From assembly GCA_945907425.1 (NCBI GenBank), contig CAMDTE010000004.1, positions 1 to 53,609 on the forward strand: a DNA stretch of 53,609 nucleotides. The letters run 5' to 3'. Positions 21,819 to 37,988 of this stretch are shown piece after piece (position 1 is the first letter of the stretch; the number at the start of each line of letters is the position of its first letter). This DNA is from Owenweeksia hongkongensis DSM 17368 (GTDB taxonomy: Bacteria > Bacteroidota > Bacteroidia > Flavobacteriales > Schleiferiaceae). The translations under genes were made by a program, and so were the position numbers. The notes beneath the pieces were generated by a model that was not told the origin of the DNA, did no database searches, and saw nothing but the letters and a program-made list of their open reading frames with translations.

Positions 21819-21826
21819 TACTTTTA
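21819..21826 (+). promoter_or_regulatory. Possible -7 element (TACTTTTA) for the secreted-nuclease operon
   Basis: TACTTTTA differs from TAnnTTTG at the last base. It is the best candidate between the divergent units, 52 bases before the ATG at 21879. Its -33 would overlap the -7 box of the opposite promoter, so the two promoters are likely mutually exclusive. Confidence 0.3.
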
Positions 21827-21829
21827 GCG

Positions 21830-21843
21830 TATTGTTAACAATA
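21830..21843. promoter_or_regulatory. 14-base perfect palindrome, possible operator
   Basis: TATTGTTAACAATA is perfectly self-complementary. It lies about 65 bases upstream of the response-regulator start and between the putative -7 box and the start of the nuclease gene. Such a site suits a dimeric DNA-binding protein; it does not look like the direct-repeat box of enterobacterial PhoB. Confidence 0.4.
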
Positions 21844-21878
21844 TAATAATGGCTACGCGTCGTACCTTCCGCATCCCT

Positions 21879-23171
21879 ATGAAAAAAATATTTATTTTTT
21901 GGTTGGTTGGATTCGGGTTGCTCCCTGTCTTGTGGGGACAATCCCCCGAGCGAATTCAGGTGATGACATACAATATACTGAACTACAGAAACTTCACCTC
22001 ATATTGCCCCAGTGCCCAAAACAATCCAACCACTAAGGAAGGTTATTTACGAGAGGTGATGGCATACGCCTTGCCGGATCTCATTGTTTTCAACGAAGTG
22101 GGCGGAGCCACCGCCACCCCGCACGCACAATTATTGACAAATGTTTTGAATGTCAATGGGGAAACCCGTTGGGCAGCTACCCCCTACGCCAACAACGGCT
22201 TTAGCAGTTTAGTAAACGCTATTTTTTACGACCAAAACAAATTGGGTTTGGTGGGGCACTGGACTATTTCCAAGTCATTGTCCAATGTCGATTTGGTCCG
22301 GGTCATTGATGTGGTGCGCTTTTATTATAGGGATTCCTTGTTGTCCATCAACCCCGACACAAGCTTTATGACAGTGGTAGGTGCGCATTTGAAAGCGGGA
22401 AATACCACAGCAGATGCTGCAGATCGCGCAACGGCTACTGCCGCTGTGATGCAGTTCATAGCGCAGCGATTTCCACAAGACAATGTTCTGTTGGCAGGCG
22501 ATTTGAACGTGTACAAAAGCCAAGAAGTGGCTTTTCAAAATTTGATCAATTACTCTGTGAGTGCCGCCCGCTTGTACGATCCTGTAGGTCAACTAGGCGC
22601 GTGGAACAACAACATCTCTTTTGCGCCTTGGCATACCCAAAGCACACGCAACGCCTCTACCAATAATGGTTGTTATTCCGGTGGAGGTTTGGACGATCGG
22701 TTTGATCACCTCTTGGTTTCCGATGAGATCTTGAACGGCACCAAAAAAGTGCACTACGTAGCGGGTTCCTTTCAGACCATTGGAAACGACGGCAATCATT
22801 TCAATTCCGCCGTGGACGAAGGGTCAAATAATACCATTCCCAGCAACATCCGAACTGCCCTGTACAACATCAGCGACCACTATCCTGTGATCCTTTCCTT
22901 GGACATGACGCGTTTGGGAATTGGACTTCCTGAGTGGAGCAAGGACTCCTCTTGGAAAATTCAGACCCGGGGTCAGGGACAGTTTATTGTTTCGTGTTTC
23001 GCAGGCGGAACGACATTCGATGTAGTCGACCTGCAAGGCCGAAGAATTTTGGAGGGGAGCGCGAAGGAAGGCAAAGCGGAATTTCAACTCCGCGAACCCT
23101 ATTCCTCCCTGTTTGTGCGCATGTTTGATTCTGCGGGCCGTTGGATTTCTAGTAATCGTTTGACGCCGTGA
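21879..23171 (+). CDS. Secreted endonuclease/exonuclease/phosphatase (EEP) family enzyme
   Basis: A 430-residue protein starting at MKKIFIFWLVGFGLLP with a signal peptide ending at LWGQ; an in-frame ATG at 21849 would add ten residues ahead of the signal. The EEP fold (about residues 25-345) has all metal and catalytic motifs: TYNILN (Asn32), FNEVGG (Glu73), GDLN (Asp208, Asn210), RFDHLLVS (Asp276, His277) and SDHYPV (Asp333, His334). The last 80 residues look like a T9SS-type tail (FDVVDLQGRRIL, then RMFDSAGRW). Family members cut nucleic acids or phosphodiesters or phosphoinositides; export plus the downstream OB-like cargoes favour a nuclease. First gene of a tightly packed operon; its stop overlaps the next GTG. 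Confidence 0.88.
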   Translation: MKKIFIFWLVGFGLLPVLWGQSPERIQVMTYNILNYRNFTSYCPSAQNNPTTKEGYLREVMAYALPDLIVFNEVGGATATPHAQLLTNVLNVNGETRWAATPYANNGFSSLVNAIFYDQNKLGLVGHWTISKSLSNVDLVRVIDVVRFYYRDSLLSINPDTSFMTVVGAHLKAGNTTADAADRATATAAVMQFIAQRFPQDNVLLAGDLNVYKSQEVAFQNLINYSVSAARLYDPVGQLGAWNNNISFAPWHTQSTRNASTNNGCYSGGGLDDRFDHLLVSDEILNGTKKVHYVAGSFQTIGNDGNHFNSAVDEGSNNTIPSNIRTALYNISDHYPVILSLDMTRLGIGLPEWSKDSSWKIQTRGQGQFIVSCFAGGTTFDVVDLQGRRILEGSAKEGKAEFQLREPYSSLFVRMFDSAGRWISSNRLTP

Positions 23172-25297
23172 CAAAGAAACTGCTCTTGTTGATAGTGGCC
23201 GTGCTCGGATTGTCAGCGCAAGGCCAGAGTTTTGATGAAAAAATAACTACCTCTTCCAATATCCGGCTCAATGTGACGAATGTAGGAACCTTTGGAAATG
23301 CTTTTCGCGGGTATAGAGATGGAAGCGGTCGGCCCTCTTGTGAATATCCCGCCGGATCTGGAACAGAGCATTTGTTTGAGGGAGGGATTTGGATTGGCGG
23401 CAAAGAAAACGGGGGGCCCGTGCGGGTATCCACCTCGGCCTACGACGCTTCTTCTGGTTATGCACCGGGCCGAGCAGGTTTTGAATTTACGGCCCCTGTG
23501 GGAAGTCAATTGACAGAAAGGAGCACGTTGACGGACAATCCTCTTTTCTCTATGGATGCGGTATCTCATCAAGACTTTGTTGCCACCTTTACCGATGCGA
23601 ATAGTTTGGTCCCTGGAACCAACATCCCTATCACCAGTCATTTGAATCCTATGAACGTGGAGATTCGAATGGAGACGTACAACTGGAATTATCGCTTTAG
23701 TGACTTCTTTGTGCTGGTGCATTTGGTTTTTAAAAATGTGGGGACCTCTGCTTTTACCGATACCTATATTGGCTTGTGGAACAACAATGTGGTGCGGAAC
23801 ATCAATGTCACACCCGCGGGTTCTGGAGGCAGCACTTTTTACTCGCAAGGTGGAAACGGGTATGTGGATTCCTTGAGCTTAAATTATCGTTTTGATGCAA
23901 CGGGTGATCCTGGGTATACCGATTCCTACATTGGAGAAAAATTTTTAGGAGCAGAGGACAAAACAGGATTTCACCATCCCGCCTTGGATCCGAATTTTCA
24001 CTCTTTGTACAACGCTTGGGTTTTTAATAATTCCGGTCAAGCCCTTTTCTTTTTTCCGACATCCGAAAATCAGCGGTACGCTAAACTGAGTCAGGGATTG
24101 AATCAAAATCCCTGTTGGGAGGATCCTTCTGGGGTGGCGTGCCAAACGGCTACAGGAGTTAACATCCAGGCCGCTTTGAATGCCCCAGGAAACCGTTCCG
24201 ATTTGCAAAGCGTAGGGCCTTTTGCATCGTTTGCTCCCGGCGATGAGATTCGTGTAACCTTTGCCTATGTGTTGGCAGGCAAGAAAGAGGATGGATTGCC
24301 CAATACGGCCAATTCCGTAGAACAGCGGTCTTCATTGATTGCCAATGCGCAATGGGCACAAACGGCGTACAACGGGGAGGACGCAAATTTTAACGGAGTG
24401 TTGGACAACGGGGAAGACAAGGATGGAAATGGCCAGATTACACGGTTTATTTTGCCTACTCCTCCCGCTACACCGCGATTGAAAGCAGTTCCCCGCAACC
24501 AAGGTATCGATGTGTATTGGGCAGCGAACGCAGAATCGTCTGTTGACCCCATTACACAAAAAATGGATTTTGAAGGGTACCGCGTGTACTTGAGTAAAGT
24601 GGGTTTTGACGTGACGCGAACCCAAGATTTGGCGCGTGACTTTGTCAAAATTGTCGAAATAGACAAGGCGGGGAATCAATTGTTTTTTGATACGGGATTG
24701 GAAAAACACCGCTTGCCTATTCCCGTTCAGTTTCCAGGAGATACGGTTGTGTATAGATACAAATACAGTGTAGAAGGAATTCCCAACGGATGGCAATTGG
24801 CGGTAGCGGTCACCTCCTTTGATGAAGGAAACGAGGCAGCGGGACTGGAATCCCTGGAGTCTAGCTTTTTGGCCAACGACAAACGTGCTTTTGCTGGGAC
24901 ATTGGCCAACGATTCTATTCAAGCCCATCGTCCCTATGTCTACCCCAATCCGTATTATGCCGGAGCTTCTTGGGAGGGTAAATCCAATTTCCAAGAAGAA
25001 AGTCGGAAGTTGATTTTCGCCAATTTACCCGCACGGTGCCGTATTACCATTACCACTGTAGCTGGGGATGTCCTAGATGTCATTGAGCACGACCAAGCGT
25101 ACCAAGGAGAGGACATTCGTTGGTTCCGAACCTTTGGCGCTGACGCTACACAAGACAATGTATTTTCCGGTGGAGAACATGCCTGGGACCTACTGACACA
25201 GTCTTCTCAATTTTTAGCTCGTGGAGTGTATTTGTTTCATGTACTCGATCTAGAGGATTACAAACAATTTACCGGTCAATTTACTGTAATACAATGA
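23168..25297 (+). CDS. Large secreted protein with Ca-binding repeats and C-terminal T9SS-like domain
   Basis: A 709-residue protein starting with GTG that overlaps the nuclease stop (GTGA). Signal peptide MTKKLLLLIVAVLGLSAQGQ. The N-terminal two thirds contain a surface-protein module (GGIWIGGKENGG; IEMETYNWNYRFSDFFVLVHLVFKNVG-like segment with TYIGLWNNN) that I recall from many uncharacterised secreted proteins of the Bacteroidota/Ignavibacteria group. Around residues 400-420 two acidic Ca-binding motifs lie side by side (DANFNGVLDNGED and DKDGNGQIT). A fibronectin-like part follows (PPATPRLKAVPRNQGIDVYW). The C-terminus has YVYPNPYY and a typical sorting-domain end (ARGVYLFHVLDLED). Function unknown; likely displayed at the surface by T9SS. 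Confidence 0.8.
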   Translation: MTKKLLLLIVAVLGLSAQGQSFDEKITTSSNIRLNVTNVGTFGNAFRGYRDGSGRPSCEYPAGSGTEHLFEGGIWIGGKENGGPVRVSTSAYDASSGYAPGRAGFEFTAPVGSQLTERSTLTDNPLFSMDAVSHQDFVATFTDANSLVPGTNIPITSHLNPMNVEIRMETYNWNYRFSDFFVLVHLVFKNVGTSAFTDTYIGLWNNNVVRNINVTPAGSGGSTFYSQGGNGYVDSLSLNYRFDATGDPGYTDSYIGEKFLGAEDKTGFHHPALDPNFHSLYNAWVFNNSGQALFFFPTSENQRYAKLSQGLNQNPCWEDPSGVACQTATGVNIQAALNAPGNRSDLQSVGPFASFAPGDEIRVTFAYVLAGKKEDGLPNTANSVEQRSSLIANAQWAQTAYNGEDANFNGVLDNGEDKDGNGQITRFILPTPPATPRLKAVPRNQGIDVYWAANAESSVDPITQKMDFEGYRVYLSKVGFDVTRTQDLARDFVKIVEIDKAGNQLFFDTGLEKHRLPIPVQFPGDTVVYRYKYSVEGIPNGWQLAVAVTSFDEGNEAAGLESLESSFLANDKRAFAGTLANDSIQAHRPYVYPNPYYAGASWEGKSNFQEESRKLIFANLPARCRITITTVAGDVLDVIEHDQAYQGEDIRWFRTFGADATQDNVFSGGEHAWDLLTQSSQFLARGVYLFHVLDLEDYKQFTGQFTVIQ

Positions 25298-27522
25298 AAA
25301 AAATCTTTACCCTTTCTCTCTTGTTGGCAATGAATGTCAGTCTTTCTGCGCAAACCTTGCCGTACACTTCCGTTCATACCCTTCAGTATGTCAGCCCGAC
25401 GAATTTAACTCTCTGCAAGGATTCTTCGCCCTACTTTATGGACACCATCCGCACGCGAGGCATTGTGGTCACTCCTGGCAATGTCAGCGAAGTAGCCTCT
25501 GGTTCTGTTCAGGGGGGAAGTCGTCCTTTCTTTTTTATTGTCGACACGGCCATGGCGGGTTCCGCAGGCCCTTTCAAGGGCATTGAAATCATGGCTGCCT
25601 ATAAGAATGCACAAAACCAATGGCTGCCTTTACCCAACGTGGAGTTGCTACTCCCAGGAGATGTCATTCAATTCATTGGAAAAGTAAACGAATACAACCA
25701 CGGCACTCAATTGGAGCCCATCAACGCCAATTCACTTCAGGTACTCAGCTCAAAACCAGCCCCTGGTTTTGTTACCGTCCCGTTGGCTCAATTGCAAGAT
25801 CCCATGCGTGTCAATATTCCTTTGACAGGAGAACAATGGGAAAATTCCTATATCGAATTGCAAAACGTGACCGTAACAGAAATATTGCCCTTTGGCGGGA
25901 ATCGAATTAGCTTCAATGTCATTGATGGACAAGGCAATAAAATCAACGTTTCGGATCGCTTTCTTGCGCAAAAATTACCTTCTTGGCAGACAGTAAATCC
26001 CTACAGTCCTCAAACGACTGGCTCTTTTACTCCTCCCGTTCCCGGTACTTTTTATTCTAGTCTAAAAGGAATGTTGCGGCACGATGCAAACGGTTGTTTT
26101 CCCAACAACGGAAATACGCGCGGCTATGAATTGAATCCCTTTTCCGCTTCGCATTACACCATTGCGTATGCCCCTCCTTACATCAGCAACTTTGAACGGG
26201 ATCCCATGATTCCAACCCCCAATCAAACGGTGGATTTGAGCTGTAATATCACCGATTTTGATGGCACGGTAGATTCCGTTCATGTGTATTACAGTATCAA
26301 CCCCGCGGCATTGCCGACACAATTTACAAAAGTTGTCATGCCCTTGTTGGCCGGATCCACTGATGATTACCTCTACACCTTGCCCAATTACCCAGACGGC
26401 ACCTTGGTGCGCTATTACATTCGCGCTAAAGACAATGCAGGGAATAAGTCGTACTATCCTGTAACGTCTGTAGGGCAAGCACAACCCAACTACGAATATT
26501 ACACGGTGCGCGCCAATGGTCCCAAAATTTACGACATCCAGTATTCTTTGGCCAGCAACAGCGCGTCTCCCTTGGTAGGAAAAGAAATAACCATCAAAGG
26601 AATCGTGACGGCATCCACCAAAGCATACGATTTAGGGTATCTCTACATTCAAGATGAAAATGGCGGACCCTATAGTGGACTTTGGTTGGTTGGGAACAAT
26701 GTGTCCAATTTCTTCCGCGGAGAGGAAGTGCTCGCCACGGGCATCGTAGAGGAGTACTACAACATGACCCGCTTGGTCGTGAGCAATATCAATAAAACAA
26801 ATGTGTGGAAAGCGCCGGTAACTACCGTTGTGGACCCCACGGATTCCATCGCAAAAATCAACTACGGTTGGGAGAAATGGGAAAGTTGCTTGGTGCGTCT
26901 TCAAGATCCCAACAACGGGAAACTGCACATCAGCCAAACCAATCTTGGATTTGGAGACTACGCTGTGAGTGCACTTCCGGGAGCCCCACGTTACAAAAGC
27001 GCCTTGGTACTCGCCGGGCGGCAGTCGGGAACCGCGTTTAGCTCCTTGTACGTTCAATTGGTTACAAACCTTATGTACGACACCATCGACGGATTCATGA
27101 GTGTGCCTCCCTTGGTTGTGAAGGACACGATGAATATGGATGCTTTGGAGGGCATTGTGTTTTTTGGATTCAGTAATTTCCGCGTGCTGCCAAGAAACAA
27201 CGATGATTTCATTGGGATCAATGTATCGCTGGACAGCACGGCATTGCAACCCTCTCCTTTGATTGGGTTGCGTGAGCAGTCCATTGCCTCTCTGCGCGTT
27301 ATACCCAACCCTACCTCGGGCATTCTCCGTATCGATTGGACGGGGCCTGCGCTTTTGCGTGCTGAAATCATCGACTTCATGGGGCGTACGCTGTGGGTTC
27401 AATCCTTATCTCAAGGGCACGGCATACTTGATTTACAGGCGTTAGCCTCAGGAACCTATTGGGTGCGCATAGAGGGTGCTCAAGGAGAAAAACACCTGCT
27501 GAAGGTGCTACTTCAACGATGA
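25294..27522 (+). CDS. T9SS-secreted protein with two OB-like modules (DUF5689-like)
   Basis: A 742-residue protein with signal peptide MKKIFTLSLLLAMNVSLSAQ. Two OB-like modules: residues about 48-150 (TIRTRGIVVTPG, then GDVIQFIGKVNEYN) and about 410-500 (GKEITIKGIVTAS, then YLYIQDENGGPY and GIVEEYYN). This pattern resembles the OB-fold modules of secreted nucleases of the YhcR/NucH kind and DUF5689 of Bacteroidota. Between them is an Ig-like domain (PYISNFERDP, VDSVHVYYSINP, VRYYIRAKDNAGN). The last 75 residues are a clear type A sorting domain (RVIPNPTSGILRIDW, ASGTYWVRIEG). Its ATG overlaps the previous stop by 4 bases. Confidence 0.85.
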   Translation: MKKIFTLSLLLAMNVSLSAQTLPYTSVHTLQYVSPTNLTLCKDSSPYFMDTIRTRGIVVTPGNVSEVASGSVQGGSRPFFFIVDTAMAGSAGPFKGIEIMAAYKNAQNQWLPLPNVELLLPGDVIQFIGKVNEYNHGTQLEPINANSLQVLSSKPAPGFVTVPLAQLQDPMRVNIPLTGEQWENSYIELQNVTVTEILPFGGNRISFNVIDGQGNKINVSDRFLAQKLPSWQTVNPYSPQTTGSFTPPVPGTFYSSLKGMLRHDANGCFPNNGNTRGYELNPFSASHYTIAYAPPYISNFERDPMIPTPNQTVDLSCNITDFDGTVDSVHVYYSINPAALPTQFTKVVMPLLAGSTDDYLYTLPNYPDGTLVRYYIRAKDNAGNKSYYPVTSVGQAQPNYEYYTVRANGPKIYDIQYSLASNSASPLVGKEITIKGIVTASTKAYDLGYLYIQDENGGPYSGLWLVGNNVSNFFRGEEVLATGIVEEYYNMTRLVVSNINKTNVWKAPVTTVVDPTDSIAKINYGWEKWESCLVRLQDPNNGKLHISQTNLGFGDYAVSALPGAPRYKSALVLAGRQSGTAFSSLYVQLVTNLMYDTIDGFMSVPPLVVKDTMNMDALEGIVFFGFSNFRVLPRNNDDFIGINVSLDSTALQPSPLIGLREQSIASLRVIPNPTSGILRIDWTGPALLRAEIIDFMGRTLWVQSLSQGHGILDLQALASGTYWVRIEGAQGEKHLLKVLLQR

Positions 27523-28964
27523 AACAAATTCCTGGTTTGCGCAGTCTTGTGGCTGCCTTTGGAGTGATTTTTATCGCTTCCTGCGATGAAGGGGTGTTGG
27601 TAAGCAACAAGGCTCCCGATACGCATTTGGCTATTGACACGATTGCACTTCAAGGGGAGAATCGACTGAATTCCGTGGTGCGTCTCAGTTGGTACGGAAC
27701 CGATGTGGACGGTGTGATCGACCATTACGAGGTTTCCTTGGATGGTCAAAACTGGAAATCTACCGAGAGGCAGGATTCTACCTTTTCATTCGTTATTCCT
27801 GCCGGACAGGACACTTCGGACATCTCGCTTTCTGTTCGGTCCATGGACGATGATGGGGCCGTTGACCCGTCGCCGGCTCATTTAATCATCCCCCTCCAAA
27901 ACGCTCCACCGGTGGTAGCGATTGATCCCGAAGGACAAACCCTTGGTACCACCTTGGGAGTTGCCACCTACAAGTGGCGCGCAACTGATCCGGATGGGAA
28001 CAATACCGTAGTCTATGCCGAAGCCAAATTCAACAACGGCACGTGGTTTCCTTTGGACATCCACCAACCGATTGTTTCTTTTGTGCTAGAAGCTGGAACA
28101 ACCACTAATGCAACAGCGAAAGTATTCAATGGGATTGCTTTGCTTCCGGAAACCCTGAGCATTGACGGAATCCAAATTTCTGCAAACAACGTTTTGTATA
28201 TCCGAGCAAAAGACCTCGCGAACCGATGGAGCGCTATCGACACGGCAGAACCCGTTGTGTTTGAGCGCCCAACGGCCCCTTTGTTGGTTATCAGTGGATC
28301 ACCGGTTTCTGTGAATACCATTTATCAAACAGCGCTTGCTGGTCTCACGGTTGCGTACGATTTTATCAATATGAACACCGTAGCAGGCTTGCCTGCGTAT
28401 TGGAATCCAACGTTTCGATTGCTTGCCTCCCAATACGATCGAATTTTCGTGTACAGCGCTTCCACGGGCGTATTGGATCCCTCCACAGGACAAACATCCA
28501 CGTTGTTGGGCCTTATGGGACCTTCTCTTCAACAGTTTACACAAACGGGTGGAAAGCTCTTGGTTTCGACCTCTTTTGGGCCGACAACTGACTTGACTCC
28601 GTACATTGGGACCTACCCCATGGAGGGCATTGTCACTTCCATTGGTCAGGTGCGATTGGTTCCCGACAGTGCGTTAGTGCCGGCAGTGAGCGGTACTTAC
28701 CCTTCTTTGCATCCAGAAAATATCGTGATTGGTTTGACTCCCTTGGTGGCCGCCGCCGATGCTCAGCCTTTCTACCGAGCTCAATTGACCAAATTGAATG
28801 GATGGCAAGGGGATAATTTGGTAGGAGTGAGACGATTTTATCAAGGCAATCCAGCGCATCCTGGACAGGTGTTTTTTTCTGTGGAATTGTATAAAATAAA
28901 TCAAAGCGCGTCGGCATTGCAGTCGTTGCTTTCTAAAATACTGGTAGATGATTTTGGGTGGTAA
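27519..28964 (+). CDS. Lipoprotein with FN3/Ig-like domains and a Rossmann-like C-terminal part
   Basis: A 481-residue lipoprotein: MKQIPGLRSLVAAFGVIFIASC gives a lipobox with Cys22. Start at 27519 is chosen because ATGA overlaps the previous stop; an in-frame start at 27459 would remove the signal peptide from the N-terminus. Two Ig/FN3-like domains (LSWYGTDVDGVIDHYEVSLDG; YKWRATDPDGNN) are followed at about residue 260 by an alpha/beta region (YDRIFVYSAS, LMGPSLQQFTQTGGKLLVSTS) reminiscent of glutamine-amidotransferase-like or M6-associated domains, without an obvious catalytic residue. Probably faces the outer membrane or surface next to the TonB receptor made by the next gene, possibly in the place SusD takes in other systems (inference). 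Confidence 0.78.
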   Translation: MKQIPGLRSLVAAFGVIFIASCDEGVLVSNKAPDTHLAIDTIALQGENRLNSVVRLSWYGTDVDGVIDHYEVSLDGQNWKSTERQDSTFSFVIPAGQDTSDISLSVRSMDDDGAVDPSPAHLIIPLQNAPPVVAIDPEGQTLGTTLGVATYKWRATDPDGNNTVVYAEAKFNNGTWFPLDIHQPIVSFVLEAGTTTNATAKVFNGIALLPETLSIDGIQISANNVLYIRAKDLANRWSAIDTAEPVVFERPTAPLLVISGSPVSVNTIYQTALAGLTVAYDFINMNTVAGLPAYWNPTFRLLASQYDRIFVYSASTGVLDPSTGQTSTLLGLMGPSLQQFTQTGGKLLVSTSFGPTTDLTPYIGTYPMEGIVTSIGQVRLVPDSALVPAVSGTYPSLHPENIVIGLTPLVAAADAQPFYRAQLTKLNGWQGDNLVGVRRFYQGNPAHPGQVFFSVELYKINQSASALQSLLSKILVDDFGW

Positions 28965-31782
28965 TCGATTTTTCTGGGCACTGCTTTTCTCGTTGTTGTC
29001 CCTCGAAGGGATGGCCCAAAATACGATGGGGGCGCTCAAAGGCTATGTAAAAGATGCCGAAACGGGAGAACCTTTGGTGGGAGTGGGTGTCACTGTAGTG
29101 GGTACCTATTCCTCTGCGCTAACAGACCCCAATGGATTTTACCACATCCAAAAATTACCGGCGGGCGACTATTCTCTTAAGTTCCAAATGATTGGATACG
29201 GCACAACGATGAGCCATGGAATTACCATCGGGAAAGGGGTCCCCACTGTTTTTTCGACCAAATTGTCCTCCAAGGCAGAGGCACTGCAAACCGTTACGGT
29301 TACGGGCAGAAAATCACAAGTGGATTTGGAAAAAGCCGCTAGCGAAATCACCTTGAAGCGAGAGGAAATTGCCCAATTGAATGTTCGAAATGTAGAGGAT
29401 GTGGTTGCCATGCAGGCAGGTGTTGTGAAAACGACGGACGGCATACAAATTCGAGGTGCGCGTGTGTACGAAACCGAATATTTAGTCGACGGAATCTCAG
29501 CGCAAGATCCTTTGGCCGGCACCGGTTTTGGAGTAAAAGTATCCTCCAGTTCGATTCAAAGCTTGGCCGTGATGACGGGCGGAGCCGGCGCTGAATTTGG
29601 CGGAGGGTCCTCTGGTGTAATCAACACCAAAATTCGGGAAGCAACGGATAAATTTGAGATGTCGGGTCAAATGATGCGCGACTACCTCCGCGACCCAACA
29701 ATAAGCACTAGTTTCTTCACGGACATTGCCGAAGTGTCCTTGGGCTTTCCAGTGCCCGGAACCCGGAAAAAAATTACTTTTTTTACCAATGGGACAGCCC
29801 ATATTACAGACGATTATTTTCCGAATGTAGCCAACCAACTGAAAAGTTCTCTGTTCCCCTCGGGCCCCGAAAAATGGGCACCTCGTCAGACGAACTCGTG
29901 GACACAAACGATGAAGCTCGCATGGCAAATCAAGTCCGGGACAAAACTCACCTTGACGAACCAACATTCTTTGAACATCAATCAAAATACCCGCACCTTG
30001 CAAATTGTGGGTTTCGATGCTCTATTATCTCCAGGCTATCAATACCTGCGAAGCAATAATTTGGACAATGCAACCACCTACACACACCATAGCAATTTAA
30101 TGGCCCTCAATCTCAACCATTTGATTTCTAAAAAATGGGGATTGACAGCCAGTGTAGGCCGGCTTTTCACTAATCTGCGGGCAGATGCCAATGGCCGGCC
30201 CTTTCGCACGCCCACAGTGGATCAAATTCTTGACGAAGACCATATTGTCACAAGTCCTGTCTCCCTCTTTAATCCCAACGATCCCTCCGGCATTTATTAT
30301 GTCCAACCGGGAAATGGTTTGGTGAACAACAACGGCATCTCCCCCGTATGGCACGATCACTACGCGGAAGAATATACTTTTCGGGTAAAAATAACCCACC
30401 GACCCGCCAACAATGTGCACAAATTGAATTTTGGTAGTGAGTACCAAATCAATAATTACCAGTGGGTGGATGTTAGTCGTCCATGGGTTGGTGCACCCAT
30501 TCAAATCAACGACAGCACATTTACTCCCTCTGTGAGTATCGGATCGAGCAATGATATTTGGCGCGTTTCGCCGCACAAAATGGCCTTGTTTGTGGAGGAC
30601 GAGATCACGTACAAAGGAATCATTGCAACGTTGGGAATGCGTTTCAATGGATGGGCTCCTGGGCAATTTGCGGACGATGCTATAAATAATCCAGACGCTC
30701 CTGTGGTCGATCAAATTCGCGCTGATTATTTGAGAAAAACTATTTCTTTGGGGGGTCTTCGTTGGAAAGCACGATTGCTTCCACGGGTCAATGTTTCTTT
30801 TCCTGTGACAGCCAACAATGTGTTGTATTTTAACTACGGACACAGCATGCGCCTTCCCCATCCTCGTTTTTCATACGCCGGATTGGATCCCGTGTATCAG
30901 GACCGTAGTTTTCTTAGCTTTTTGGGCAACCCAGACCTGGATCCAGAAGTCAATGTGAGCTACGAAGTGGGCTACAAAGCGAGCGTAAATAAGAATTTGG
31001 GATTTACATTCTCTGCCTTCAATAACAACCGCTTTGATTATATAGTGTCCCGAAAAGTATTGGTGCGGGACCAAACCGGTCGACAAGTGAGCAAAACAAT
31101 GCACATCAATCAAGACTACGCTAAGGTACAAGGAGTGGAATGGAGCGTGCAGGGGCAGTTGACTTCTGCTTGGAGAATGTTTGGAAACGTCGCCTATCAA
31201 GTGGCCCGTGGAAAGTCCAATTCCGCCAGAGAAAGTGCTTTGCAAATTGAGCAAAACGGAGAAGTAAAGCTGAGTCGTGAACAATTTTTGGCATGGGATC
31301 GCCCATGGAACATCAATTGGGGTACCGTTCTCGCGCCTAACAAGGGCCGATGGAGAGGATTGGAAGCCTCCGTTCAATCGAATTACACTTCCGGATTCCG
31401 GTATACACCACAAAAATTCACCGGATACAACGACCTAGGCCGTCCACAGTACCAAGTGTTGACCAGTGAGTATTTAACAAAAAAGGCTGCGCCTTGGCTA
31501 AATACAGACGCTCGCCTTTCCTACACGCTTCGGGCATTTAAAAAACGAGAAACGGGCATCACACTCCAATGCGAGGTGCGAAATCTTTTCAATCAGCTCA
31601 ATTCGCAAATCATCAATCCCATCACTGGACGCGCCTACGAGTACGGCGATGATGTTCCTACGGATTGGCGCGATCCTCGCCCTGAATTCAACGGCCCACA
31701 AGAAAGTGGATTAGACCCTCGCGATCCTTCTCGTTACACGGCACCTCGTCAAATTTTATTCGGTATCACCTTTAAATTATGA
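28948..31782 (+). CDS. TonB-dependent outer-membrane receptor with carboxypeptidase-regulatory-like domain
   Basis: A 944-residue receptor. Signal peptide ends at LEGMAQ; residues about 28-105 form a CarboxypepD_reg-like domain (LKGYVKDAETGEPLVGVGV, LTDPNGFYHIQKLPAGDY). The plug follows (LQTVTVTGRK, IQIRGARVYETEYLVDGI, GGAGAEFGGGSSGVINTKIRE), and the rest is the 22-strand barrel, ending with an aromatic-poor GITFKL. The start overlaps the lipoprotein gene by 17 bases. No SusD gene accompanies it, so it is not a classical SusC/D pair. Family role: energy-dependent import of large or scarce ligands. The ligand here is unknown. Confidence 0.92.
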   Translation: MILGGNRFFWALLFSLLSLEGMAQNTMGALKGYVKDAETGEPLVGVGVTVVGTYSSALTDPNGFYHIQKLPAGDYSLKFQMIGYGTTMSHGITIGKGVPTVFSTKLSSKAEALQTVTVTGRKSQVDLEKAASEITLKREEIAQLNVRNVEDVVAMQAGVVKTTDGIQIRGARVYETEYLVDGISAQDPLAGTGFGVKVSSSSIQSLAVMTGGAGAEFGGGSSGVINTKIREATDKFEMSGQMMRDYLRDPTISTSFFTDIAEVSLGFPVPGTRKKITFFTNGTAHITDDYFPNVANQLKSSLFPSGPEKWAPRQTNSWTQTMKLAWQIKSGTKLTLTNQHSLNINQNTRTLQIVGFDALLSPGYQYLRSNNLDNATTYTHHSNLMALNLNHLISKKWGLTASVGRLFTNLRADANGRPFRTPTVDQILDEDHIVTSPVSLFNPNDPSGIYYVQPGNGLVNNNGISPVWHDHYAEEYTFRVKITHRPANNVHKLNFGSEYQINNYQWVDVSRPWVGAPIQINDSTFTPSVSIGSSNDIWRVSPHKMALFVEDEITYKGIIATLGMRFNGWAPGQFADDAINNPDAPVVDQIRADYLRKTISLGGLRWKARLLPRVNVSFPVTANNVLYFNYGHSMRLPHPRFSYAGLDPVYQDRSFLSFLGNPDLDPEVNVSYEVGYKASVNKNLGFTFSAFNNNRFDYIVSRKVLVRDQTGRQVSKTMHINQDYAKVQGVEWSVQGQLTSAWRMFGNVAYQVARGKSNSARESALQIEQNGEVKLSREQFLAWDRPWNINWGTVLAPNKGRWRGLEASVQSNYTSGFRYTPQKFTGYNDLGRPQYQVLTSEYLTKKAAPWLNTDARLSYTLRAFKKRETGITLQCEVRNLFNQLNSQIINPITGRAYEYGDDVPTDWRDPRPEFNGPQESGLDPRDPSRYTAPRQILFGITFKL

Positions 31783-32795
31783 AAGCTGTGCTTCGTTTCT
31801 TAGGTCTGGCAACGGCTGTTCTTTTCTTTGCCAGCACGTCATGGGCGCAATTGCTTCCTGCCTACGGTGGAGAGCGCGCAGGAGCTTCTGCCCTGTCCTT
31901 CTTGAAGAATGATCTCAACGTACGATCCGTAGGAATGGCGGGTGCAAACGTTTCGTTATCCGGAGATGGATACAGTTGGTTGAACAACCCAGCGGCTATG
32001 TCCGATGTTCGAAATACAACGGTTGCTATCAGCAATGGTTTTGTAGGCGGGGGTGTTCAACACCAATACGCGGCAGCCTCGTGGGCGCAAAAGAAAGACA
32101 TAACCACTCTAGGCATCATGACCAATGTGTTGGAAACGGGTGCCTTTGAAGAACGGACGGAATTCCAACCCCAAGGCACCGGCCGCCTGTTGTACGGAAC
32201 GCATGCAGCTCTTGGGGTAGGTATTGGCAAACGACTCACAGAACAATTTAGCTTAGGTGTTGTGCTCAAAGGCGTCCATGAAACCGTAGGAGATTACCGA
32301 AACACAACGGCAGCGGTTGACCTTGGCTTTTTGTACCGAACCGATGTGAAGGGCGTTCAATTTGCCGTGGCCATACGGAACTTCGGAGGGTCTTCTGCGT
32401 TGAGCGGAACTTATTTGACCTCCTTATTCAACCGCACACCGGTAGGTTCTCTCAATAAAAATACCTTGCCAACAGAATTTTGCATGGGGATTTCTGGCAA
32501 CGCTTGGCAGAATGGCTCCCGGATGCTGCGCGTTGCGGTTCAATTGAATCACCCCAACGACAATGCGGAAAACTACCGTTTGGGTTGTGAATACAGTCAC
32601 AACGACCGGCTCATCGTTCGGACCGGCGTAGCCCTCAATGTGGCGGGAAAAACTTGGCCCGCTTTGGGCTTTAGCACGAAAGGCCGCATGGGCCCTATCC
32701 CTTTTTGGATTGACTTTGCGAGCACACCTACGGCCTATACAGGCATGGCTTCCGTGCTTGGACTTCGCTTCTCACTACACTCCGTACAAAAATGA
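31779..32795 (+). CDS. PorV/PorQ-family outer-membrane beta-barrel
   Basis: A 338-residue protein with signal peptide (ending SWAQ) and the family N-terminus: SALSFLKNDLNVRSVGMAGANVSLSGDGYSWLNNPAAM, which I shorten as GMAGANVSL...NNPAAM. The rest is a FadL-like barrel with paired strands, ending VLGLRFSLHSV. PorV binds T9SS cargo leaving the SprA translocon and hands it to the attachment complex; PorQ is its relative. A copy embedded in an operon of T9SS cargoes suggests a dedicated shuttle or anchor for them (inference). Overlaps the receptor stop by 4 bases. Confidence 0.82.
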   Translation: MKAVLRFLGLATAVLFFASTSWAQLLPAYGGERAGASALSFLKNDLNVRSVGMAGANVSLSGDGYSWLNNPAAMSDVRNTTVAISNGFVGGGVQHQYAAASWAQKKDITTLGIMTNVLETGAFEERTEFQPQGTGRLLYGTHAALGVGIGKRLTEQFSLGVVLKGVHETVGDYRNTTAAVDLGFLYRTDVKGVQFAVAIRNFGGSSALSGTYLTSLFNRTPVGSLNKNTLPTEFCMGISGNAWQNGSRMLRVAVQLNHPNDNAENYRLGCEYSHNDRLIVRTGVALNVAGKTWPALGFSTKGRMGPIPFWIDFASTPTAYTGMASVLGLRFSLHSVQK

Positions 32796-33988
32796 TAAGA
32801 AACTTATTTCTCGGAACCGTTTCTCTGATTTTGCTCAGCGGGTGCGAAGGGTACTTTGGAACGAAGACGGATTTGGGCTTTATCGATGTGCCCAACTACT
32901 CCCTGCGGGACATTGCCTACGTCCCCATTCAGCCAGCTTGGAAGAACTTTACAAAACCCGTCGATGTTTGTATAGGCTTCGACGAACTGATTTACGTGGC
33001 CGACGAAGGCGCGGAAGAAATTGTTTGTTTGGATGAGTCTGGCCGCGTGTTGGGCCGTCTTTTTGTTCCCGGCGTGCATGCTGTTCGTCAAGACCGACGC
33101 TTTGACTTGTTGGCAATCGGCACCCACGACACGGTAGTCAATGGGGTTAACTATGATTTGAGTTGCGTGTACCGAATTCGTTTGGCCAAGGCGTCCGGAT
33201 ACGGTTTACAATACGCTACCGTCCTTCACAAAACGATTCATCCCTTCTATTTTAAAAACACCTTTTCCTTGGGCGATGCCCAGGTTCGGTTTGAGCAAAT
33301 AGCTGTTTTGGGCAGTGCCACTCCGGCAAAAAACAATCGGTATTATGTGACACGAACAGGCCCCAGCGCAAACAATGCAAACCAAGGCCCGGACGATGCC
33401 GTTCTTCAATTCTCCGCTCAAGACGATTTCCTAACGTCCGTATCGGTAAACACTTCAAGCGGTCTCTTTGCCAATTATTTCAAGAAACCCTTCGGTATTG
33501 TATCCTTCAGTCAGCCTCCGCAAATAACCGCCAATGCTTCGGATAATTTCTTGGTTAGTTCCGTAAGCCCTACACAAGCCATTCAAGTGCATCAAATCCA
33601 ATTTGAAGAGACAGATTTTGGTGCGGAATTTAAACCTTCTGTTTATTTACCGGATCCTTCCCTGGCCGATAGTTGGATACAAAAACCCGCGCGCTTTACG
33701 AACCCAACGGGTTTGACTATGGCGGGGGATCACACCAAATACATTTGGGTTGTTGACGCAACTAAAGACAGCGTTTTCCAATTTACATCGAACGGTCTGG
33801 AAGGGATTCCTCCTCCGCCTGCGAGCGGTGAACGGCGGTATGCGCGCACCTCGTTTGGCGGCTCAGGTTCCGGCGTAGGACAGTTTCATGAACCACGGGC
33901 CGTCGCGTACTACCGAAAGATCTTGTACGTAGCAGACGCAGGCAATGGCCGTATTGTTCGATTCAAATTAACGCTTGATTTTGATTAA
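32792..33988 (+). CDS. NHL-repeat lipoprotein
   Basis: A 398-residue lipoprotein (MIRNLFLGTVSLILLSGC, lipobox LSGC, Cys18). NHL-type propeller repeats are clearest at residues about 55-95 (KPVDVCIGFDELIYVADEG, VCLDESGRVLGRL) and at the C-terminus (GVGQFHEPRAVAYY, LYVADAGNGRIVRF). Propellers of this sort bind proteins or polymers. Last gene of the overlapping seven-gene unit. No hairpin terminator follows in the 51 bases before the next gene. Confidence 0.82.
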   Translation: MIRNLFLGTVSLILLSGCEGYFGTKTDLGFIDVPNYSLRDIAYVPIQPAWKNFTKPVDVCIGFDELIYVADEGAEEIVCLDESGRVLGRLFVPGVHAVRQDRRFDLLAIGTHDTVVNGVNYDLSCVYRIRLAKASGYGLQYATVLHKTIHPFYFKNTFSLGDAQVRFEQIAVLGSATPAKNNRYYVTRTGPSANNANQGPDDAVLQFSAQDDFLTSVSVNTSSGLFANYFKKPFGIVSFSQPPQITANASDNFLVSSVSPTQAIQVHQIQFEETDFGAEFKPSVYLPDPSLADSWIQKPARFTNPTGLTMAGDHTKYIWVVDATKDSVFQFTSNGLEGIPPPPASGERRYARTSFGGSGSGVGQFHEPRAVAYYRKILYVADAGNGRIVRFKLTLDFD

Positions 33989-34026
33989 CACTCCTACCGT
34001 TTAACAATTCCACAACACGCACCCCT

Positions 34027-34034
34027 TACCTTTG
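34027..34034 (+). promoter_or_regulatory. -7 element (TACCTTTG) for the 34040 gene
   Basis: TACCTTTG matches TAnnTTTG and is only 5 bases (ATCCT) from the ATG at 34040, so a leaderless transcript is expected. It suggests the 1290-codon gene can be expressed apart from the upstream operon. Confidence 0.5.
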
Positions 34035-34039
34035 ATCCT

Positions 34040-37000
34040 ATGAAAACAAGAACAACACAATGGGCGGTTAGCTTCGTCCTCATTATGGGCTGTTTAACCC
34101 CTACTTGGGCTACTAATCACCTAGTAACCGTAAGCAACAATGTGTTTACCCCCTCTTCTCTATCTATTGTTGCGGGCGACCAAGTAACGTGGAATCAAAC
34201 CTCCGGTTCACACAATGTCAACGGAACGATCGCCACCTTTCCCGCCAATCCAGCGAGTTTTGGAAACGGAGCTCCGGCGGGTGGAACGTGGAGCTACTCG
34301 TTCACCTTTTTAGTGGCGGGAACCTATCAGTACCAATGCGATCCACACGCCGCCATGGGAATGGTCGGCACCATTGTGGTTTCCCCCGCGCCTTGCACTC
34401 TGCCTTTTTTTTCCGAGTACATCGAAGGATCTGGCAACAACAAAGCATTGGAAATTTACAATCCACGCTCTACTCCCTTGGCGATGGGCGGATACTCTAT
34501 CAAAGCCTACAACAATGGAGGATTGACCGTATCGAACACTTTCACTTTCCCGGCAAACGAGATCATTGCCCCTGGAGATGTCTATGTCATAGCCAATTCG
34601 GCTGCCGTAACGGCCCTAACGTCGGTTGCTGACACTACCTCAACCATCACTTATTTCAACGGAGACGATGCCGTCGTTCTTTTCAATGGACTGGACACCT
34701 TGGATATCATTGGAAAAGTAGGCTTTGATCCCGGCATCAACTGGGTGGTAGGCACAGGGGCAACTTCTGAATTTACCTTGGTGAGAAAGCCTACGATCAA
34801 TAAAGGGCAGAAAAAATGGACCATTGGAGCAACAGAGTGGGACGTATACCCACAAAACACGGCCACTTATTTGGGTTCTCACTCTAGTACCGCTTGCTCC
34901 TCTACTCCAGTGATAGGCCCTGTGCGAACACCTCTGAGCGCCTTGCGTGCCACGGATGCCAACGGTGTTGCCTTAGCAGACAACGACACGGTGTATGTTA
35001 CAGGGACTGTGCATAGCATTGACTTCGACGGAAATACAGGTTACAGCTTCTTTATAGAAGACGGAACCGCCGGTATCAATGTGTATCGCGCAGCTGATTT
35101 AGCAAACTATACGATGCCTACCGTAGGCGATAGTTTGAAGGTGTACGGTATCATTGACCAATACAACGGTTTGACTGAAATCATTCCCGATTCCATTAAA
35201 GTCATACTCACAGGTCGGAATTTTGGCTCGCCTCTCCCTACCAACACAATGGGCGAATTACAGGAAAGTCGTTTTATCGTGTTGGATTCCTTGACGCTAA
35301 CGACTCCTTCTCAGTGGCCGGCTTTGGGATCTAGCGCCAACGTAACCGTCAACAATGGCGCACTCACGTATACGTTGCGGATTGATTCGGATAGCGACAT
35401 CGACGGTTCTTCCGCTCCCACCGGAATGTTTGCCGTGATAGGTGCTGGGGGGCAATACGATGCTTCTTCTCCATACGACGCGGGATATCAAATCTACGTG
35501 AGCAAAAGGGTCGATTTCTTGCCAATGGGAACGCTCGGAGTTTTGACACCCCTGAGTTCTACGGCAGCTGTCAATGCCAACGGCGTAGCCACGATGAATG
35601 CGCAACAAGTAGTGATTCGAGGCATTGTTACCACGCCAGATTTTGATGGAAATACAGGGTATTCGTTCTACATGCAAGATGCTACGGGCGGTATCAACGT
35701 GTACCGCACAACAGACAAAGCGAATTACACCACGCCTACCATGGGCGATCATTTGGAAATACGGGGTACCCTCGCTCAATTCAATGGCCTGACGGAAATC
35801 ATACCCGATTCCCTTATTCTTTTAGCGTCTGGGCAAAGCGTTCCCACTCCTCAAGTAGTGACTGTTTTGGATGAATCCGTGGAATCAGAACTGGTTCGTT
35901 TCAACAACATGTCACTTGTCAATGCGGCCCAATGGACCAACACCGGAACGGCTTTCAATGTGGATATTACCAATGGTAGCAATACATTGACTCTTCGCAT
36001 CGATGCGGATGTGACCGCATTCGGCACTCCAGCTCCCACCGGTTTGTTTGATGTCATTGGCGTAGGGAGTCAATACGATAATTCCTCGCCGTACACCTCT
36101 GGATACCAACTCATGCCTCGGCAAGCGAGCGACATCCTTCCGATCATCACTACAACGCCCACTGTTCGATTTACGTCCACGGCACAGCAAATTTTGGAAG
36201 GCAACGTAGTAGCGCCCGTCCGCTTGTACATCAATCCGGTCAAGACATCGGCCTCTTCTGTGACGATTCATGCCGTAGCCCCTGCGACAGCAGGCCTCAC
36301 CTTGGGAGTAGACTACACTCTTCCTGCAGCCACCGGCACCACATTAACCGTGACTGTTCCGGCAAATGAAGATACCGTTTCCTTCAACGTGAACATTTTG
36401 GACGACCTCTTGATGGAATCCTTGGAAGGTGTTGACTTTAAAATCATGAGCTCAACGGGATTAACGATAGGATCCATTGATAGTCTTCGCTTTTCCGTCA
36501 TCGACAACGATGTGTTTATCCCTACCCGAACCCTTCCGCAAGTGCGCGGTGTGAATACCGCAGGCGTTTTGGACTCTTTGAATAAGGTGTGCAAATTGCA
36601 GGGTGTTGTATTGGGTGTCAACACGCAAAGTGTCACCAGCGGAAACGTAGCGTTCACCATTCACGATGGCACCGTTGGGTTTGGCGTATTTGGAGCTGCG
36701 GCGAGCAACTTGGGTTACACCGTCAACGAGGGAGATTTCGTCCGTATCATAGGAAAAATCAATCAGTACAATGGCCTGGGACAAATCAGCGCCGACTCTG
36801 TCAAATTGATCTCTACAGGCTCCGCTTTGCCGGCTACTGACCTGATTACAGCCCTTGGCGAGGTGACAGAAAATGACTTGGTCCGTATGAACAATGTTTC
36901 TTTGGTGAATCCTACGCAATGGACGAACGCAGGGTCCGGATTCAATGTGGATGTCACCGATGGAGTGAATACGATTCAGTTGCGCATAGATGCAGAAGTG

Positions 37001-37912
37001 AATTTGTACAGCATGCCTGCACCGGTGGGTACATTTGACATTGTTGGTATTGGTGGTCAATTCGATAATTCATCTCCTTACACCTCTGGGTATCAGTTGT
37101 TACCTCGTTATTCAGCCGACGTTATTGTCGCTATACCCATGACGTACGACTTGGCCGTAACGGAAATCATGTCCAATTCAAACAGCCCCGATGCTGCCGT
37201 AAATGACGATTGGTTTGAAATCACAAACTACGGAACGACGGCTGTAAATCTGAATGGGTTTTCATGGGATGACTTTACTTCCATGGCGGGCTCTTCCATT
37301 TTTCCCGCTGTGACAATTGCTCCGGGTGAAGCCGCTGTCGTTTGGGCGGGACATTCCTCCGACGAGGCCAGCTTCCGTCAGTTTTGGTTCATACATCCCT
37401 ACACGCAAATCATCACTAGCGATGAGTTAACTGGCGCTTTCCAGCCCTTGAGCTCTTCTGCCGATGCGGTCATTCTTTACGACACGAGCGCCATGGCGGT
37501 AGAAATTTGCAACGCTGCCTATGCGTCCACCTCTGCCGGCAGAACCGTTGAGTTTGACACTACTTGCTTTTACCTTGGGAACGCTACGGCTGGTATTCGC
37601 GGTGCGTGGAGTGCTCAGTCTTTTGATGTAGCGGGTAGTCCGGGAAATGTAAACACGATAGGCTTGAACGAAGGGACTTTGGCCGCCATTCGCGTTTTCC
37701 CGAACCCTACCTCCGACCGATTCGAGGTAGTGACTCCTTTTGCGGGCATTAAAACACTGCGTGTCATAGATGTTTTGGGCAAAGAGGTGGCGAGAGTATC
37801 TGGTCAGCAAACCGTGTTCGAACTGTCCTTACGCTCGGCCGCTAGTGGACTGTATTTGGTAGAAATACACACGGAGCGCGGAACGAAGACGCTTCGCGTA
37901 GTGAAGCACTAA
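34040..37912 (+). CDS. Giant T9SS surface protein: blue-copper, lamin-tail, OB-like repeats, Calx-beta
   Basis: A 1290-residue modular protein. Signal peptide about 1-24. Residues about 26-115 are a plastocyanin-like domain with the full type 1 copper set His58, Cys100, His103 and Met108. About 119-285 is a lamin-tail domain (FFSEYIEGSGNNKALEIYN). Three repeats of about 200 residues (roughly 298-491, 504-700, 831-1029) each contain an OB-like half (GYSFFIEDGTAGINVYR, then YNGLTEIIPDS) and a second half (LRIDAD, DNSSPYTSGYQL). A Calx-beta domain (about 715-825) separates repeats two and three. A second lamin-tail domain (about 1034-1160) and a type A sorting domain (FPNPTSDRFEV to the end) follow. 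Lamin-tail plus OB modules occur in extracellular nucleases, but no nuclease core is seen here. Likely surface-attached; partner of the upstream operon by theme and position. Confidence 0.88.
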   Translation: MKTRTTQWAVSFVLIMGCLTPTWATNHLVTVSNNVFTPSSLSIVAGDQVTWNQTSGSHNVNGTIATFPANPASFGNGAPAGGTWSYSFTFLVAGTYQYQCDPHAAMGMVGTIVVSPAPCTLPFFSEYIEGSGNNKALEIYNPRSTPLAMGGYSIKAYNNGGLTVSNTFTFPANEIIAPGDVYVIANSAAVTALTSVADTTSTITYFNGDDAVVLFNGLDTLDIIGKVGFDPGINWVVGTGATSEFTLVRKPTINKGQKKWTIGATEWDVYPQNTATYLGSHSSTACSSTPVIGPVRTPLSALRATDANGVALADNDTVYVTGTVHSIDFDGNTGYSFFIEDGTAGINVYRAADLANYTMPTVGDSLKVYGIIDQYNGLTEIIPDSIKVILTGRNFGSPLPTNTMGELQESRFIVLDSLTLTTPSQWPALGSSANVTVNNGALTYTLRIDSDSDIDGSSAPTGMFAVIGAGGQYDASSPYDAGYQIYVSKRVDFLPMGTLGVLTPLSSTAAVNANGVATMNAQQVVIRGIVTTPDFDGNTGYSFYMQDATGGINVYRTTDKANYTTPTMGDHLEIRGTLAQFNGLTEIIPDSLILLASGQSVPTPQVVTVLDESVESELVRFNNMSLVNAAQWTNTGTAFNVDITNGSNTLTLRIDADVTAFGTPAPTGLFDVIGVGSQYDNSSPYTSGYQLMPRQASDILPIITTTPTVRFTSTAQQILEGNVVAPVRLYINPVKTSASSVTIHAVAPATAGLTLGVDYTLPAATGTTLTVTVPANEDTVSFNVNILDDLLMESLEGVDFKIMSSTGLTIGSIDSLRFSVIDNDVFIPTRTLPQVRGVNTAGVLDSLNKVCKLQGVVLGVNTQSVTSGNVAFTIHDGTVGFGVFGAAASNLGYTVNEGDFVRIIGKINQYNGLGQISADSVKLISTGSALPATDLITALGEVTENDLVRMNNVSLVNPTQWTNAGSGFNVDVTDGVNTIQLRIDAEVNLYSMPAPVGTFDIVGIGGQFDNSSPYTSGYQLLPRYSADVIVAIPMTYDLAVTEIMSNSNSPDAAVNDDWFEITNYGTTAVNLNGFSWDDFTSMAGSSIFPAVTIAPGEAAVVWAGHSSDEASFRQFWFIHPYTQIITSDELTGAFQPLSSSADAVILYDTSAMAVEICNAAYASTSAGRTVEFDTTCFYLGNATAGIRGAWSAQSFDVAGSPGNVNTIGLNEGTLAAIRVFPNPTSDRFEVVTPFAGIKTLRVIDVLGKEVARVSGQQTVFELSLRSAASGLYLVEIHTERGTKTLRVVKH
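34931..37130 (+). repeat. Three in-frame repeats of about 200 codons inside the 34040 gene
   Basis: Unit 1 is about 34931-35515, unit 2 about 35549-36140, unit 3 about 36532-37130. Units 2 and 3 are closest in their second halves (SLVNAAQWTN against SLVNPTQWTN; NSSPYTSGYQL in both). Units 1 and 2 are closest in the first half (DFDGNTGYSF in both). The first two are adjacent and the third is set apart by the Calx-beta part. Confidence 0.8.
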
Positions 37913-37954: not shown

Positions 37955-37988
37955 GAAAAAACCCCGCTCCAAGGAGCGGGGTTTTTTT
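37955..37988. terminator. Bidirectional terminator between the 34040 gene and groEL
   Basis: An A-tract, then CCCCGCTCC-AA-GGAGCGGGG and a T-tract form a very stable hairpin that ends transcription from both sides. Just before it, 37930-37946 is another inverted repeat (CGCAATCG-A-CGATTGCG) without a T-tract. Confidence 0.93.

Follow-up and report, generated by a model that had tools for sequence, protein, structure and literature searches.

A predicted type IX-exported protein with a plastocyanin-type head in a PhoB-linked operon of Schleiferiaceae, with a probable part in harvesting phosphorus from nucleic acids

We analyzed a 53,609-nucleotide stretch of DNA (the window) from Owenweeksia hongkongensis DSM 17368 (contig CAMDTE010000004.1 of assembly GCA_945907425.1), centering on g8, a 1290-residue protein whose open reading frame (ORF) is open throughout and is the last of eight genes, g1 to g8. 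Several described systems resemble this locus. The nuclease ExeM combines a lamin tail domain (LTD), an OB domain, and an EEP (DNase I-like) domain, and its activity depends on the YcgR/OB region, while its expression rises in phosphate starvation (PMC6085458). In Flavobacterium johnsoniae, the phoBR cluster and the LTD nucleases EndA1/2 are induced by depletion of inorganic phosphate, and the PUSIV locus at phoBR places the genes of a TonB receptor and of a pectate-lyase-like lipoprotein next to those of PhoR and PhoB (PMC8115612). Polysaccharide utilization loci of the SusCD type unite a surface binding protein, a hydrolase, and a TonB transporter in one operon. DNA-degradation loci are also on record from Candidatus Izemoplasmatales, which we take to be wall-less Firmicutes with no outer membrane. 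The transporters of these loci differ from those described here, and a copper head is not mentioned in the available part of the source (PMC8289736).

Set beside these systems, g8 and its locus are a variant on known kinds, namely phosphate utilization loci and the parts of ExeM-type nucleases. In Schleiferiaceae the PUSIV-like locus gains an LTD/OB/copper protein with a sorting tail for the type IX secretion system (T9SS), and in the window's clade a cassette of EEP and TonB-receptor genes sits there. With SusCD-type loci it shares the combination of surface binding protein, hydrolase, and transporter, but neither Pfam nor NCBIfam finds a SusD family in g1 to g8, which sets the operon apart from SusCD-type polysaccharide or phosphate utilization loci; a candidate nuclease replaces the glycosidase, and PorV/Q-family and NHL proteins stand instead. 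As for ExeM/NucH, the LTD and OB segments of g8, the OB segment of g3, and the EEP domain of g1 match different parts of the profiles, but all matches lie below cut-off, the parts are on separate proteins, and a copper head and a T9SS tail are added. A literature search by title and abstract opening, its scope excluding subscription papers and preprints, yielded no paper describing the locus or a copper-LTD-OB T9SS protein.

The modular build of g8 is clear from profile searches. Above their Pfam cut-offs are LTD (1e-27, two stretches), DUF5689 (4.5e-21, three), OB tRNA_anti-codon (3e-14, three), Por_Secre_tail (4.5e-8), and Copper-bind (PF00127, 50.5 bits against a cut-off of 21.2). The original prediction, made by a model from the letters of the window, had described a plastocyanin-like head followed by lamin-tail, OB-like, Calx-beta, and T9SS sorting domains; all of these were found, with the refinement that another LTD stands before the sorting tail. 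Pfam does not call Calx-beta in g8, and we assign the domain because the segment is homologous to one in an orthologue (L075) that Pfam does call Calx-beta (1.8e-16). Export and surface display by type IX secretion, likewise proposed at the outset, are strongly predicted: the type A tail scores 41.3 bits with TIGR04183 against a cut-off of 23, and the N-terminus is hydrophobic by eye. The modules of g8 are freely shuffled among relatives.

The complete ligand set that had been read at the N-terminus also held up. His58, Cys100, His103, and Met108 line up with the ligands of the cyanobacterial plastocyanin 1pcs, and none of the four varies among the 43 cupredoxin copies that were aligned (21 from a scan using the motif YQYQCDPH, and biased for that reason, 21 gathered by overall similarity, and the window's own; L086 duplicates L038). 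An AlphaFold model of residues 24-500, built with 18 relatives, has a confidence score (pLDDT) of about 90 across most of the head, which superposes on plastocyanin 1bxu with a Z of 14.7, at 1.3 Å over 84 residues and 34% identity; the VIA-align lists cover the cupredoxin part of this model alone, and the absence of other families from them is uninformative. The head has a His-Cys-His-Met set in a cupredoxin fold, as type 1 copper proteins of the plastocyanin family do, and shares fold, spacing, and all four ligands with plastocyanin, pseudoazurin, and amicyanin. To judge from alignment and model, it very probably binds copper. Rather than being a free periplasmic carrier, this domain heads a 1290-residue surface protein, and a role for g8 as a respiratory electron carrier is unlikely given the T9SS tail.

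The plastocyanin-type (type 1) copper site is an electron-transfer site and is coordinatively closed. For this reason, and because no partner enzyme was found among the eight genes, we rejected oxidative attack on a polymer as a lead reading, a role that the original prediction had entertained; family profile searches recognized no redox partner gene, redox enzyme, or copper transporter in g1 to g8. The g8 domain is the sole PF00127 match in the window's genome. Across the family, 50 of 88 genomes have a match, and the head can be called optional since the other 38 have none; that many orthologues do without it makes it dispensable as well. The 62 matches in these 88 genomes comprise 32 in frames of at least 550 residues, 28 in frames of at most 260, and two between. 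On this distribution and its ligand conservation, the copper head is seemingly an optional but strictly maintained accessory. One genome with a phoB-linked copper protein (G049) also encodes a 2590-residue T9SS protein in which the cupredoxin domain is internal (L076:860-8629).

The link to nucleic acids proved much stronger than had been noted, through profile matches to ExeM/NucH, the nearest OB folds, and the operon partners. Residues 124-287 of g8 match the ExeM profile NF033680 (1e-23) and residues 527-635 the ExeM/NucH profile, both below cut-off in NCBIfam. With 83.4 bits against a required 1300, 41.2 against 300, and no EEP domain in the chain, g8 is no member of the ExeM/NucH nucleases, yet by its sequence it appears to work like a part of one. 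A model of OB unit b (residues 503-703, with 40 related units) gave a tandem OB-type module with a mean pLDDT of 93.5. Its best solved Foldseek matches are HIN domains with double-stranded DNA, Teb1, CST, POT1, RPA, and tRNA-synthetase anticodon domains, so that almost all of its nearest solved folds are nucleic-acid-binding OB domains. VIA-align places it on the OB domain of aspartyl-tRNA synthetase (1wyd) with a Z of 11.8, at 2.2 Å over 90 residues; that list is confined to model residues 1-103, and the absence of other families there is uninformative. The double-OB reading comes from full-length Foldseek alignments to tandem OB proteins, with root-mean-square deviations of 7-17 Å that leave the relative placement of the halves uncertain. 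The modelled unit has the OB fold, and a fold shared with nucleic-acid binders shows no function by itself; we infer nucleic-acid binding by the OB and LTD segments from the fold together with the ExeM parallel.

The genes upstream of g8 fit such a role. The eight genes are co-directional and tightly packed over 21849-37912 on the forward strand, each of g2 to g7 overlapping the preceding gene (g4 with an inferred start) and g8 following g7 after 51 nucleotides. The g1 product carries a signal peptide, and its residues N42, E83, H180, D218/N220, and D343/H344 are invariant in an alignment across six homologues; we take these N, E, H, DxN, and DH residues to be the EEP catalytic motifs. NCBIfam gives g1 sub-cut-off matches to MnuA (2.3e-9) and ExeM/NucH (7.2e-8). 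Residues 1-117 of g3 match another part of ExeM/NucH (NF033681, 1.6e-9, below cut-off), and its T9SS tail scores 30.5 bits with TIGR04183.

The position of g8 next to phosphate regulators recurs among relatives. A match to the g8 protein occurs in 52 of 60 relative genomes, 28 loci being drawn from a named collection. In a neighborhood table of 39 loci from 38 relative genomes, 21 loci lie at a phoB-like gene, and the copper head is present in 15 of these (16 of 22 with the window included). All 15 proteins with cupredoxin plus LTD/OB domains and a readable upstream flank are at a phoB-like gene; contig ends truncate a further two, and of this pair the one in G031 adjoins the same TonB receptor and lipoprotein. 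Proteins with the cupredoxin domain but without LTD/OB are not at phoB (four rows). The layout in most genera is phoR-phoB, a divergent lipoprotein gene (lipoH), a TonB receptor of a second type, and g8, with a sodium/phosphate symporter carrying a PhoU part at the locus in several genera. The EEP-TonB operon takes the place of lipoH and receptor in the window's genus, as it does in two sister-genus genomes (G027, G035). Genome G013 (L105, L086) links the two layouts, since phoBR, lipoH, and the second TonB receptor stand there in line with a complete g1-g8 operon; in G007 the operon and the phoBR-lipoH-receptor set lie on different contigs, with no copper head. Outside the family, the phoBR-receptor-lipoH layout persists in several loci without g8, and in G094 (L159) it stands with a CARDB T9SS protein, the same arrangement that the table of the PUSIV study gives (PMC8115612).

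Four genomes were tested, and in every one the PhoB-like regulator scores highest for PhoB, those of G094, G028, and G013 also falling below cut-off. Between phoB and the divergent gene, the repeat TTAACA-N5-TTAACA (at least 10 of 12 positions) occurs in 19 of 21 loci of relatives, against 2.2 expected from shuffles, and the enrichment is confined to a period of 11 bp, other spacings giving 0 to 6. Position and repeats suggest that g1 to g8 are under phosphate control. The symporter that relatives have beside g8 was not found in the window's genome. As a separate observation, this 1.55 Mb genome (G000) has a single well-scoring, full-length OmpR/PhoB-type response regulator, the other three matches being weak and partial.

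Taken together, g8 is probably a T9SS-exported, cell-surface, nucleic-acid-binding member of a PhoB-type phosphate-starvation operon that harvests phosphorus from extracellular DNA, RNA, or similar phosphodiesters. Its OB/LTD chain would hold DNA or RNA at the cell surface, where g1, judging from its residues, may cut it. The receptor, PorV/Q, and lipoprotein set could then take up or present the products, a part suggested for g5 and g6 by their families. The locus would in effect be an ExeM-type nuclease split over several proteins. As for the cupredoxin head, its most likely part is that of a redox or metal-holding accessory with one copper bound, and not that of the agent that cuts.

A number of observations weigh against this explanation. 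All family matches of g1 are below cut-off (PF03372 at 16.1 against 24.5 bits), although its relatives in L203, L204, L209, and L210 pass PF03372 with 31 to 59 bits, and a structure-profile search finds no confident solved relative, the best E values being 0.019 and 0.043. OB folds also bind other ligands. The regulator scores 220 bits, short of the 270 of the NCBI PhoB equivalog (NF053854); the window's own Pho-box-like repeat matches at 10 of 12 positions, with a chance of 0.044, and the TTAACA repeat is not enriched in the window's genome (6 sites, against 10 for a reversed control). Six of the 21 phoB-linked relatives lack the copper head, from which it follows that copper is not essential. 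Saprospiraceae encode cupredoxin-LTD-OB-T9SS proteins (L043, L044, L048, L050, L052-L054) beside unrelated neighbors rather than at phosphate loci, and no phosphate or nuclease theme appeared in the Saprospiraceae neighborhoods inspected. In the wider set of 60 loci considered below, 26 have no nuclease ORF by our hidden Markov models (HMMs), although Pfam finds an EEP domain in one of these, L210.

Alternatively, the locus may be phosphate-regulated and aimed at other phosphoesters, such as phospholipids, phosphorylated glycans, or teichoic-type polymers, with the EEP and PLD proteins acting as phospholipases or other phosphodiesterases and g8 binding the polymer. Below cut-off, g1 also matches a sphingomyelinase, and a search with its profile reaches sphingomyelinase C (7cne); phospholipases occur among PLD folds, and the neighboring lipoH family is discussed as possibly binding cell-wall glycans (PMC8115612). 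However, g1 scores better for MnuA and ExeM than for sphingomyelinase, and the OB and LTD segments match ExeM/NucH and nucleic-acid OB folds, which makes this alternative unlikely.

We consider it distinctly unlikely, too, that g8 is an ordinary modular adhesin or scaffold of the T9SS type that acquired its copper domain by shuffling and its location by inherited synteny. The free shuffling of modules, the Saprospiraceae versions beside unrelated genes, and the phoB-free cupredoxin proteins without LTD/OB would all agree with such an origin. The original prediction had held that a domain order common in ordinary adhesins with no link to nucleic acids would undo it, and the Saprospiraceae proteins supply half of that picture. 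An adhesin would not account well for the strict retention of the ligands, for nuclease partners of two unrelated folds that recur, or for a phoB linkage kept while neighbors are replaced, as comparison of the bridging loci L105/L086 in G013 with G028 and the window indicates. Least probable, and in our view improbable, is a g8 that is mainly a copper protein, capturing or buffering copper at the surface or passing electrons to or from an extracellular partner, with an indirect phosphate link. The complete and conserved type 1 site speaks for it, as does the lack of any further PF00127 match in the genome, and so does the fact that in 23 of the 88 family genomes the only kind of match listed is in an ORF of at least 550 residues. 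The operon, in contrast, has no recognized copper transporter or redox enzyme, and both the 38 family genomes lacking PF00127 and the six headless phoB-linked orthologues tell against it.

The harvesting of phosphorus from nucleic acids gains a wider context from g2 to g7, and this phylum-wide cassette is a more important find than g8 itself. Homologues of g2 occur in 123 of 395 sampled genomes of the phylum (E 1e-10) and of g5 in 112 (E 1e-60); the 20 same-order genomes listed without a match had neither. Sixty cassette loci were drawn from the 123 genomes, 20 for spread and then 40 down the hit list, omitting some cut by contig ends; because the genomes are related, locus counts are not independent. 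Across 22 families, 50 of the 60 have the g2-g7 set, or 46 when a BLAST match is demanded of g3. In 34 of the 60, a secreted nuclease-like ORF of EEP or PLD type lies nearby, and in 29 it follows g7 immediately and in the same direction. Such an ORF occurs in 11 of the 22 families, both folds being represented in f31 and f49. Forty of the loci were added once the pattern had been noticed, and 27 of these 40 have the ORF. None of 120 control loci, which are shorter on average and centered on other genes, has such an ORF. The EEP HMM was seeded from seven sequences (window, L104, L107, L203, L204, L209, L210) and the PLD HMM from three (L202, L211, L216). Both HKD motifs are kept in 17 of 17 PLD ORFs, and all four motif classes tested in 14 of 19 EEP ORFs. 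A period-11 repeat (at least 11 of 12) lies upstream of g2 in 10 of 60 loci, against 7 of 604 other ORFs of the same loci (Fisher p 2e-7, uncorrected for relatedness). The copper head is absent from all 60 loci, and g2 and g4 have no Pfam or NCBIfam family. Weak response regulator matches in L210, L219, L244, and L258, at 27-33% identity, were not counted as PhoB. In two loci with no EEP or PLD ORF (L215:3407-4657, L218:16778-18088), a type I phosphodiesterase/nucleotide pyrophosphatase and a xanthine/uracil permease adjoin g7, which also fits nucleic-acid use.

It is possible, if speculative, that g2 to g7 form an undescribed Bacteroidota system for nucleic-acid utilization, made up of a TonB receptor, a PorV/Q-family protein, an NHL lipoprotein, and OB and further surface proteins, with secreted nucleases of EEP or PLD type that can stand in for each other and with widespread PhoB control. 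In marine Schleiferiaceae it would be joined to a surface protein that holds DNA and bears a copper head, the type 1 copper helping to handle captured nucleic acid. Extracellular DNA is a large phosphorus pool, and an outer-membrane uptake route for its pieces in Bacteroidota is undescribed in the literature found. A conserved receptor cassette that is repeatedly paired with secreted nucleases and lies at or close to signals of phosphate control offers concrete genes to test, and the fused head poses a clear puzzle, placing an intact type 1 copper site on the surface of organisms in which no other PF00127 domain was found.

Table 1. Positions in the window of g8, its domains, its operon partners, and nearby regulatory features.
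Feature	Position	Strand	Basis
g8, multidomain type IX-exported protein (predicted), plastocyanin-type head	34040..37912	+	ORF, Pfam, NCBIfam
Cupredoxin (plastocyanin-type) domain, residues 26-117	34115..34390	+	PF00127 2.8e-13
Ligand codons His58, Cys100, His103, Met108	34211, 34337, 34346, 34361	+	within cupredoxin domain
Lamin tail domain 1, residues 118-288	34391..34903	+	PF00932; ExeM profile NF033680 below cut-off
OB unit a, residues 296-495	34925..35524	+	PF01336/PF18942
OB unit b, residues 503-702, tandem OB type	35546..36145	+	Pfam and model, pLDDT 93.5
Calx-beta-like domain, residues 705-812	36152..36475	+	local HMM; orthologous L075 segment PF03160 1.8e-16
OB unit c, residues 822-1029	36503..37126	+	Pfam, local HMM
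Lamin tail domain 2, residues 1035-1205	37142..37654	+	Pfam, local HMM
T9SS type A sorting tail, residues 1219-1290	37694..37909	+	TIGR04183
g1, secreted EEP (DNase I-like) nuclease candidate	21849..23171	+	PF03372 weak; MnuA, ExeM/NucH below cut-off
g2, 709-residue secreted protein, no family	23168..25297	+	Pfam/NCBIfam searches
g3, OB-type protein, T9SS tail	25294..27522	+	NF033681, TIGR04183
g4, lipoprotein, start inferred at 27519	27519..28964	+	sequence; no family
g5, TonB-dependent receptor	28948..31782	+	PF00593 4.9e-28
g6, PorV/PorQ family outer membrane protein	31779..32795	+	NF033709 107.8 bits, cut-off 90
g7, NHL-repeat lipoprotein	32792..33988	+	PF01436; sequence
Terminator-like hairpin between g8 and groEL	37961..37982	.	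scan hits at background level overall; location fits
PhoB-like response regulator, divergent from operon	21084..21764	-	best PhoB score in genome, 220 bits
PhoR/PnpS-like histidine kinase	20052..21074	-	NCBIfam best match, below cut-off
Pho-box-like repeat TTAGCG-N5-TTAACA, 10/12 matches, weak	21824..21840	+	chance 0.044

Two further genes deserve mention. A tryptophan 2,3-dioxygenase gene (PF03301, window 19065-20030) adjoins that of the PhoR-like kinase. Elsewhere in the window's genome, a lipoH homologue (G000:C96:2813-3466) lies in a 552-residue frame that also has a T9SS tail.

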